Positions 35,606-58,020 of a stretch of DNA of 64,000 nt are shown here, in pieces. The stretch is taken from contig JABCZL010000006.1 in assembly GCA_013289685.1 (NCBI GenBank), positions 248,001 through 312,000 of the forward strand. The letters run 5' to 3'. The position numbers and the translations under genes are program-made. The number at the start of each line of letters is the position of its first letter. The stretch's first letter is position 1. This DNA comes from Acidobacteriota bacterium. GTDB lineage: Bacteria > Acidobacteriota > Terriglobia > Terriglobales > Acidobacteriaceae. Below the pieces are notes generated by a model. The model saw only the letters and a list, made by a program, of their open reading frames with translations. It ran no database searches and was not told where the DNA came from.

Positions 35606-35681
35606 GGCCAGGTAGCTCAGGTGGTAGAGCGCAGCCCTGAAAAGGCTGGCGTCGGCGGTTCAACTCCGTCCCTGGCCACCA
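35606..35681 (+). tRNA. tRNA-Phe (GAA)
   Basis: 76 bases with CCA encoded. Acceptor stem GGCCAGG/CCTGGCC, D arm GCTC-AGGTGGTA-GAGC, anticodon arm CAGCC-CTGAAAA-GGCTG with anticodon GAA, T arm GGCGG-TTCAACT-CCGTC (one G-U pair), discriminator A678 and CCA at 35679-35681. All four stems pair. A sigma70-type promoter lies upstream. Confidence 0.97.
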
Positions 35682-55778: not shown

Positions 55779-56927
55779 TTGAAAAGCTCCTACCTAGCTG
55801 GTCTGCTGCTTGGAATTCTGCTGTCAGCAGGATGGGGCCTTATTGCCTGCGGAGGCAGCAATCACACCCTGAACTCGTGCCCACCCCTGTCGCCGCCATC
55901 GTCATCCAACGGAAGCCTGGCGGCGGCGGTCGATCCTCTCGTCCTGAGCGAAATGAAGGCGCAAGGGCTGGTGGGCGTGGCGGTGGCAGTCGCGAAGAAT
56001 GGAAAGATTCTGTACACCCAGGGATATGGTTACGCGAACCTGGCCACCTGCCAAGCTGTCCAGCCGTCGATGGACTTTCAGATCGGATCCGTCACCAAAC
56101 AGTTCACTGCTGCCGCAGTTTTGCAATTGCAAAATGCCGGGAAGCTGAATCTCGACGACACCGTACTCACCTATCTGCCGAATTACGCGTTCGATCCGCG
56201 GCTCACTCTTCGCATGTTATTGACCCAAACCTCGGGCCTGCCGAACTACCTTGACTTCCCTGACGTGAGTTCCTGGGTCAACGGCGTTTCCGAGCAGACA
56301 GTCCTCACCCAGATCGCGCAAGCGCCGCTGATATTCGCGCCGGGCAGCTACTACGCCTATAGCAACAGCAACTATTATGTCCTGGGTTCGGTCATCGAGG
56401 CCGTGAGTTCCGTGACCTATCCGAGCTACATGGCATCGAACATTTTCCAGCCCGTAGGGTTGAGCAGTACTTCGTATCTCCAACCGGCAGGCGCAGCATC
56501 TCCTTATACGCAGGGCCCGAGTCCCGGACTCATCCCCGACCCGTCTCTGTATTTTTCGGCGGGCGCTTTGTGGTCGAACGTGCAGGACTTGGCTACCTGG
56601 GATGCAGCCCTGCTCAACGGCAAGGTGATCCCGCCAGGGCTGTTCAGTGTGATGGTGACCCCTTCTGGCCTGCCCATTTATCCGCAAGGAGGCGCTTCTC
56701 CATACGCGATGGGCTGGGTCGATGCGACCGAAGTGGGTCATCCATCTGTGTGGCACAACGGTGAGACGGCCGCCTATACCTCGTTCAACGGCGTATTTCT
56801 CGACGATGGCTTTTCCGTGATTGTGCTGACGAATATGCCCGTGAAAGAGGACACCCCCCTGCTGAATCTCGAGCAGCAACTGATGCAGTCGATCTGCACT
56901 TCGTCGGCAACCGCGGGCAATTGCTAG
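55779..56927 (+). CDS. Class C beta-lactamase-fold serine hydrolase, lipoprotein
   Basis: 382 residues from TTG 55779. The signal ends in a lipobox (GWGLIACGGS), so it is probably a lipoprotein. The beta-lactamase/DD-peptidase fold shows the nucleophile motif SVTK in FQIGSVTKQFTAAAVLQLQ, the YSN motif in YYAYSNSNYYVLGSVIEAVS and HNG in SVWHNGETAAYTSFNGVFL in place of KTG. Such proteins are esterases, peptidases or D-aminopeptidases more often than true lactamases. It is unlinked to neighbours. Confidence 0.9.
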   Translation: MKSSYLAGLLLGILLSAGWGLIACGGSNHTLNSCPPLSPPSSSNGSLAAAVDPLVLSEMKAQGLVGVAVAVAKNGKILYTQGYGYANLATCQAVQPSMDFQIGSVTKQFTAAAVLQLQNAGKLNLDDTVLTYLPNYAFDPRLTLRMLLTQTSGLPNYLDFPDVSSWVNGVSEQTVLTQIAQAPLIFAPGSYYAYSNSNYYVLGSVIEAVSSVTYPSYMASNIFQPVGLSSTSYLQPAGAASPYTQGPSPGLIPDPSLYFSAGALWSNVQDLATWDAALLNGKVIPPGLFSVMVTPSGLPIYPQGGASPYAMGWVDATEVGHPSVWHNGETAAYTSFNGVFLDDGFSVIVLTNMPVKEDTPLLNLEQQLMQSICTSSATAGNC

Positions 56928-57048: not shown

Positions 57049-58020
57049 ATGAATGACCTGCTCTCCATGATGGTGCGCCACGGCTATGCCCTGACGTTCG
57101 CCTTGCTGTTTGCCGAGGCGGTTGGCCTGCCCTTTCCGGCGGCGATCGCGCTGGTCGCAGCGGGGGCCGCCATCGCGTCCCACGCCTTGTTGGCGCCCGG
57201 TGTCCTGTTGGCCGCCATGGTCGCACTGCTCTTGGGCGACTCGGCGCAGTTCTGGCTGGGGCGCTACTCCGGCTGGGCCCTGCTCGGCTTCCTCTGCCGT
57301 CTTTCGATGAATCCCGAAACCTGCATCCTCCGGTCCGCTGAATCGTTCTACAAGCGCGGCAAGGCGACGCTGGTCGTCGCCAAGTTCATTCCCGGGGTCA
57401 ACACCATGGCCGCGCCCCTGGCGGGCAGCATGAAGATGCGCTATGGGCAGTTCCTGCGCCTCGACCTGGCTGGCTCGCTGCTGTATTCCACCACTTACCT
57501 GCTGGTGGGATATTTATCCCGCGATTTTCTGGCCGCGACGTTAAGCGGGTTCCACGCGGCGCGACGCGCCATGGAAGTCGTGGTGATCACCGCGCTCGTC
57601 GTGTATGCCGTCTACCGCGCGGTGCAGTTCCGCAAGTATAAGAAGTACCGCGTCATGCCCCGGGTGCAGGTCGAGGAACTGGTCGCGCGTCTGGCTTCGG
57701 ACGAGGCCTACCGTGTGCTCATCGCAGACGTGCGCAGCCACGGCTACTACGACGTCGGAACCGAGCGGATCAAAGGATCGATCCGCATCGAGCCCAACAA
57801 TCTTGAAGAAGAGATCAAGAATCTCCCCAAAGACAAGGACATTTACCTTTACTGTACTTGAGCGCGCGAAGCGACCAGCGCCCGGGTGGCGCATCTACTG
57901 CAGGAAAAAGGCTTCAGCACGTTCGTGATCGTCGGCGGATTGGCCGCCTGGCGCAAGGCCGGGCAGCCGCTGGAATCGATTCCAAAAAATGATCTGGTGA
58001 GGCTGCCCACTTTCAGCTGA
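57049..58020 (+). CDS. DedA-family membrane protein fused to rhodanese domain, candidate selenoprotein (UGA at codon 271)
   Basis: Residues 1-200 are a DedA/VTT membrane domain (LTFALLFAEAVGLPFPAAIA, FIPGVNTMAAPLAGSMKMRY, GSLLYSTTYLLVGYL). A cytoplasmic rhodanese domain follows from about residue 210 (EAYRVLIADVRSHGYYDVGT, IKGSIRIEPNNLEEEIKNLP). The frame meets TGA 57859-57861 right in the active-site loop DIYLYCT-TGA-AREATS. It then continues with rhodanese text (ARVAHLLQEKGFSTFVIVGG, LAAWRKAG, LVRLPTFS) to TGA 58018. From memory of relatives, this loop is YC-x-C followed by x-x-EA-[ST]-SARVA, so the TGA aligns with a Cys. Reading UGA as selenocysteine gives 323 residues. Alternatives are a fresh nonsense mutation or a base error, which would leave a 270-residue protein with no working sulfurtransferase loop. 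Confidence 0.7.
57878..57892 (+). promoter_or_regulatory. Possible bacterial SECIS hairpin after the in-frame UGA
   Basis: GCGCC (57878-57882), loop CGGGU, GGCGC (57888-57892). The loop begins 21 bases after the UGA, has G at its second position and a GU at its end, which fits general bacterial SECIS rules. The stem is short and the region GC-rich, so it could be chance. Confidence 0.4.

Follow-up and report, generated by a model that had tools for sequence, protein, structure and literature searches.

A DedA-rhodanese fusion gene of Acidobacteriota with an in-frame UGA very likely encodes a selenoprotein

The gene for a DedA-rhodanese fusion protein, identified in the window (the whole stretch of 64,000 nucleotides of acidobacterial DNA analysed here), very likely encodes a genuine selenoprotein, in which selenocysteine (Sec) forms the second half of a C-x-U motif, C269-T270-U271, within the rhodanese domain. 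The exchange between UGA and Cys codons among the homologues, the conservation and covariation of a bacterial SECIS (bSECIS) hairpin and the presence of the decoding machinery are shown by sequence comparison; the incorporation of Sec itself is inferred, in the absence of peptide, 75Se or reporter data. The gene would add to the Acidobacteriota, common inhabitants of soils and peat, a widespread and deeply conserved selenoprotein subfamily, and would connect the DedA superfamily, in which no role is known for the rhodanese fusions, with selenium. Standard gene calling would stop at codon 270 in such genes, with the loss of the catalytic end of the protein.

The features of the gene are listed in Table 1. 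Translation with genetic code table 11 yields an ORF of 270 aa that ends at the internal TGA, while reading through this codon gives the complete protein, with 52 codons between the internal TGA and the end and a second TGA (58018-58020) as the terminal stop. The VTT_dom match of Pfam scores 42.1 bits against a cut-off of 33.9, which meets the criterion for the DedA/VTT superfamily, and the Pfam Rhodanese match, also above its cut-off, runs across the internal TGA. In the main TGA group, 55 sequences have Thr directly upstream of this TGA (codon 57856-57858 in the window), and 52 of them encode it with ACT. This share is far above the average for fourfold codons, and it is possible that the U preceding the UGA influences decoding.

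Table 1. Positions of the features discussed, counted from the first nucleotide of the window
Feature	Position	Strand	Remarks
DedA-rhodanese gene (very probable selenoprotein), complete CDS	57049..58020	+	323 aa with Sec271
DedA/VTT membrane domain	57133..57516	+	residues 29-156, PF09335
Codon of Cys83	57295..57297	+	Cys in 137/137 homologues
Codon of Cys92	57322..57324	+	Cys in 137/137 homologues
Rhodanese domain	57676..57957	+	residues 210-303, PF00581
Codon of Cys269, first half of the C-x-U motif	57853..57855	+	Cys in 137/137 homologues
In-frame TGA, proposed Sec codon (residue 271)	57859..57861	+	reading frame and homologue alignment
Bacterial SECIS hairpin GCGCC-CGGGU-GGCGC	57878..57892	+	stem 57878-57882 / 57888-57892, loop CGGGU 57883-57887
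tRNA gene	35606-35678	+	Rfam RF00005

The state of codon 271 was examined in 137 homologues, each with at least 250 aligned residues. The codon is TGA in 91 of these and a Cys codon in the remaining 46, with no other residue observed, and the loops show an exact exchange at this site, of the type YCT-U-AREATSAR versus YCT-C-PRDATSSK and similar forms. A TGA flanked on both sides by conserved coding sequence and aligned with Cys in homologues meets the criterion for a selenoprotein. Among 200 related genomes, nearly all the matches from the same genus hold exactly one in-frame TGA; TGA forms are also present in other families of the Acidobacteriota and the codon recurs across many genera. At least ten changes between the TGA and the Cys states were inferred on a tree of 132 sequences, which constitutes a natural series of Sec/Cys exchanges for testing the benefit of selenium to a rhodanese-type active site. 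The same exchange, together with the hairpin, was found in a second group of DedA-rhodanese proteins, about 35% identical and carrying the loop CT[U/C]PNEATS.

Members of this second group occur at loci L089, L091, L092, L095-L103, L110 and several of L209-L221, and the loops of their hairpins vary (AGUUU, AGUCU, CGUGC, CGGGC). MAGs of Gammaproteobacteria (L179, L181, L182) also carry the Cys form of the DedA-rhodanese gene, at 45-50% identity to the window protein, possibly through transfer or misbinning; the distribution beyond the Acidobacteriota was only sampled. In a Bryobacter sp. MAG (L180), the Cys codon TGC is followed by a fully paired hairpin with a loop, CGCGU, that lacks G[GU], and judged from the sequence alone this gene possibly resembles a recent conversion of Sec to Cys.

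The hairpin downstream of the TGA conforms to the published rules for bSECIS elements, namely a loop of 3-9 nt, a stem of 4-16 bp, a G in the first two loop positions, a distance of 16-37 nt from the UGA to the loop and an MFE <= -7.5 kcal/mol (PMC13188914). It begins 16 nt past the TGA, its loop lies 21 nt from it, and the stem and the loop comprise 5 bp and 5 nt, respectively; all the rules are met, the energy rule only narrowly (-7.6 kcal/mol). The exact arrangement TGA-N16-GCGCC-N5-GGCGC occurs once in the 6.85 Mb genome. A perfect 5-bp stem at +16 nt is present in 107 of 111 TGA genes versus 2 of 45 Cys genes, and a loop beginning with G[GU] in 106 of 107 TGA genes versus 10 of 45 Cys genes. 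Counting of pairs in 70 TGA sequences gave 99.7% paired cells, with double changes at two stem pairs (C-G to U-A and G-C to A-U); shuffled alignments rarely or never attain the observed percentage of pairing, the observed double changes or the observed score for covariation. Controls in which the hairpin was slid along the alignment drop to 20-73% paired. The compensatory changes are few (4 cells). Independently of any folding, codon usage shows that the hairpin is conserved: the three least variable of 46 conserved fourfold-degenerate codons are Ala278 (GCC in 54/54), Val280 (GTG in 54/54) and Ala281 (GCG in 53/54), with a top-codon share of 0.98-1.00 against a mean of 0.58. Likewise, Ser277 is AGC in 56 of 57 sequences, and the sole AGT co-occurs with the sole GCA, in L032, restoring the pair. 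By comparison with shuffles, the single-sequence folding energy is exceptional neither for the 15-mer hairpin (z -1.45) nor for the 42-nt stretch from the UGA (z 0.16), and the case for the hairpin therefore rests on the comparative evidence. Two TGA homologues, L190 and L193, lack the canonical +16 hairpin (GCCTGCGCGTGGCGC, 3/5 pairs); a GCCAC/GUGGC stem possibly substitutes for it there.

The source genome of the window (98.9% complete) was found to carry the components required for decoding. These include a tRNA-Sec with anticodon TCA (selC), SelA (548.9 bits), SelB (348.8 bits against a cut-off of 242) and SelD (363.4 bits), and the occurrence of all four in the same genome meets the criterion for a bacterial selenoprotein. 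SelD has one in-frame TGA of its own, from which it is itself likely to be a selenoprotein, an inference from sequence only; the gene lies at G000:C13:22161-23099, and its in-frame TGA is followed, at a distance of about 14 nt, by a possible GUCC...GGAC hairpin (L021, around 1530-1580). The closest relative that bears a name is a MAG of Candidatus Sulfotelmatobacter (86% identical). The remaining relatives are MAGs of Acidobacteriaceae and Terriglobia, and the sample names of several refer to peat or soil; Candidatus Sulfotelmatobacter is thus the likely genus of the source genome, as judged from relatives only.

The association of SelB with the codon state was examined in genomes with a completeness of 90% or more. 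SelB is present in all the 76 genomes with a TGA form and absent from none, whereas Cys-only genomes are divided between 12 with and 15 without it (Fisher's test, 4e-11). This test treats the genomes as independent though they are related, and shared ancestry inflates the association; phylogenetically independent pairs include none in the opposite direction but are too few for significance. Seven TGA genomes gave no SelB match, every one of them being less than 90% complete, and SelD is present in six of the seven. No SelD match was obtained in any of the 18 Cys-only genomes without SelB.

The initial annotation, made without knowledge of the source, had described a DedA-rhodanese fusion with a UGA in the rhodanese loop, and this description held, as did its position for the TGA, its count of 52 codons and its distances for the hairpin. 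Its expectation that relatives would carry Cys in the UGA column was borne out, as was its proposal of a SECIS element, which satisfies the bSECIS rules and shows covariation. It had also noted that the window contains no sel genes, a gap closed by finding selA, selB, selC and selD in the source genome, and it had named, besides the absence of selA, selB or selC from the genome, two further observations that would refute the claim: frameshifts downstream of the TGA in relatives, which do not occur since the downstream frame stays open, and reads showing TGC or TGT. A sequencing error at the TGA is excluded by the same TGA in dozens of independent genomes.

An AlphaFold2 model built from 48 sequences (mean pLDDT 79.7, pTM 0.62) predicts a helical membrane part and a rhodanese fold. 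Residues 202-312 of the model match E. coli GlpE (1gmx) with Z 13.4, an rmsd of 2.3 and 103 aligned residues, which meets the criterion for a rhodanese fold, and this part matches many other structures as well. The structure search matched the rhodanese half alone, and the missing DedA match carries no evidential weight. In the model, the C-x-U motif follows a strand (264-268) and precedes a helix that begins at residue 272. The catalytic Cys of rhodaneses sits in a six-residue loop. In a phmmer alignment to 6mxv, the loop Cys of that chain falls on residue 271, while by counting from the strand side Cys269 fits; the choice between Cys269 and Sec271 is unsettled, and the earlier assignment of Sec to the nucleophile goes beyond the evidence. 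The DedA/VTT domain is inferred to be polytopic, and the rhodanese domain that it carries to face the cytoplasm, since the last membrane helix is followed by a basic stretch, RKYKKYRVMPR.

In the proposed mechanism, SelB would bind the hairpin and deliver Sec-tRNA(Sec) to the UGA, and the ribosome would insert Sec at residue 271 before translating the rest of the gene. Sec271 would then be paired with Cys269 as a selenenylsulfide or persulfide, and this pair would trade electrons or sulfane sulfur with the two invariant cysteines of the DedA domain, Cys83 and Cys92. That the protein is a membrane-bound thiol/selenol enzyme working by this exchange is put forward tentatively, as the case falls a little short of making it probable: the substrate, the relay and the activity are all inferred, without direct evidence. 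A bolder reading, no more than possible and equally without direct evidence, is a membrane chalcogen relay built on a DedA fold that, as inferred from sequence, has lost the residues of undecaprenyl phosphate (UndP) flippases. Here electrons or sulfane sulfur would travel via the two DedA cysteines and the rhodanese Cys-x-Sec, either at the inner membrane or across it, in a functional parallel to systems of the DsbD/CcdA type or to TsoB.

The gene order of the window between 51121 and 57861 is shared by many relatives and comprises metG-like, tatD-like, yajQ-like and polyprenyl diphosphate synthase-like genes followed by the DedA-rhodanese gene; the names (methionyl-tRNA synthetase-, TatD-, YajQ- and polyprenyl diphosphate synthase-like) were assigned by reading the translations, without a family search. 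In the window, a beta-lactamase-like gene (55779-56927) is inserted within this order. The gap between the synthase-like and the DedA-rhodanese genes is usually hundreds of bases, with a minimum of 49 nt at one locus. The linkage of the DedA-rhodanese gene with its upstream genes is conserved, and an operon is undemonstrated.

Two alternatives to Sec insertion were considered. In the one, the gene is a pseudogene or carries a sequencing error, such that the TGA is a true stop and the product a DedA protein with a truncated rhodanese and a dead tail. TGA is formally a stop codon, and table 11 ends the ORF at it; however, the same TGA is found in two-thirds of the homologues (91/137) and spans several families and many genera, the hairpin that follows it is conserved at the third positions of codons, and the open downstream frame with conserved rhodanese sequence in the homologues already refutes this explanation, which is all but excluded. 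In the other, the UGA is read through by different means, such as a reassigned code or a near-cognate tRNA, with the insertion of Trp, Gly or another residue. Reading through UGA by itself indeed leaves the inserted residue unidentified. Against this, 11 of the 30 long genes of the window end with UGA as a normal stop codon, and therefore the genetic code is not reassigned; UGA also terminates the DedA-rhodanese gene itself. In addition, the alternative residue in the relatives is invariably Cys, SelB accompanies the TGA form in 76 of 76 near-complete genomes and the hairpin fits the bSECIS model, all of which make non-Sec read-through very unlikely.

The function of the protein is less constrained. 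It is possible that the DedA part flips UndP or another lipid and that the C-x-U rhodanese regulates it as a redox or sulfur sensor. A role as UndP flippases has been put forward for the DedA proteins of COG0586, which include rhodanese fusions (PMC10127716); moreover, 47 of 81 loci have the polyprenyl diphosphate synthase-like gene upstream. Of the residues essential for UndP flipping in YghB (E39, D51, R130 and R136; PMC10127716), however, D51 and R136 are present in 0/137 homologues and R130 is replaced by Lys in 134/137, so that the four-residue criterion is not met, E39 being kept in 119/137. The D51 column adjoins a 3-residue gap and is the least certain of the four. The flippase explanation also leaves Cys83 and Cys92 unaccounted for, and in the window the beta-lactamase-like gene separates the synthase-like gene from the fusion. 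The invariance of Cys83, Cys92 and Cys269 and the constant absence of two flippase residues therefore favour the thiol/selenol relay over UndP flipping. Another explanation, considered unlikely, is selenium supply, in which DedA imports selenite and the Sec-rhodanese reduces it or hands selenium on for SelD, with support from a link between selenite uptake and a DedA protein in Cupriavidus metallidurans (cited in PMC8679861). The Cys form, however, persists in the 18 genomes devoid of both SelB and SelD matches, from which the core function appears independent of selenium metabolism, and no sel gene was recognised in the recurrent neighbourhood. Since the Cys form is kept in genomes without a selenium pathway, selenium more likely improves a thiol activity, as in the relay, than serves as the substrate.

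With regard to known selenoproteins, a 2026 review lists 119 prokaryotic families, including rhodanese forms 1-5 (PMC13188914), several of the families being credited to Haft and Tolstoy 2025 (PMC12013261); no DedA entry is present in this catalogue. No model of NCBIfam release 20.0 scored above its cut-off for the window protein or the four homologues tested. A limited library of literature yielded no paper joining DedA, rhodanese and selenoprotein, and a search for DedA with selenoprotein only papers that seem unrelated. One Acidobacteriota genome was among those covered by a deep-learning survey, which found no new selenoprotein genes in it and mentions neither DedA nor rhodanese.

The nearest known family is NF041203 (rhodanese_LYCAU, the 'rhodanese-like domain-containing protein form 3' of Table 1 in PMC13188914), which the rhodanese half matches best within NCBIfam, with 84.7 bits for the window protein and 76.7-96.3 bits for the four homologues, all under the curated cut-off of 115. 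Like the window protein, whose C269-T270-U271 fulfils the requirement of that family for C-x-U or C-x-C in a rhodanese domain, it has an L-Y pair ahead of a C-x-U motif with Sec; unlike the window protein, the model covers 126 rhodanese-only positions, without DedA/VTT. Cys-type DedA-rhodanese fusions such as Pseudomonas aeruginosa PA1209 (PMC12893004) and those of COG0586 (PMC10127716) share the order of DedA followed by rhodanese, but have not been described as selenoproteins and the role of their rhodanese is unknown. TsoB (NF045694), a rhodanese/DsbD fusion-like selenoprotein, likewise joins a rhodanese-like domain to a second part, but has two Sec residues in U-x4-U and a DsbD-like partner instead of DedA, and the NCBIfam search gave no match of NF045694 to the window protein. 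The UndP flippases YghB and UptA of E. coli have the DedA/VTT domain in common with the window protein, whereas the window family lacks two of the four essential residues in all 137 homologues and has gained Cys83, Cys92 and the rhodanese domain. The initial claim of a new selenoprotein is largely upheld: C-x-U rhodaneses and Cys-type DedA-rhodaneses are already known, and the new part, within the catalogues searched, is the selenocysteine DedA fusion and its spread.
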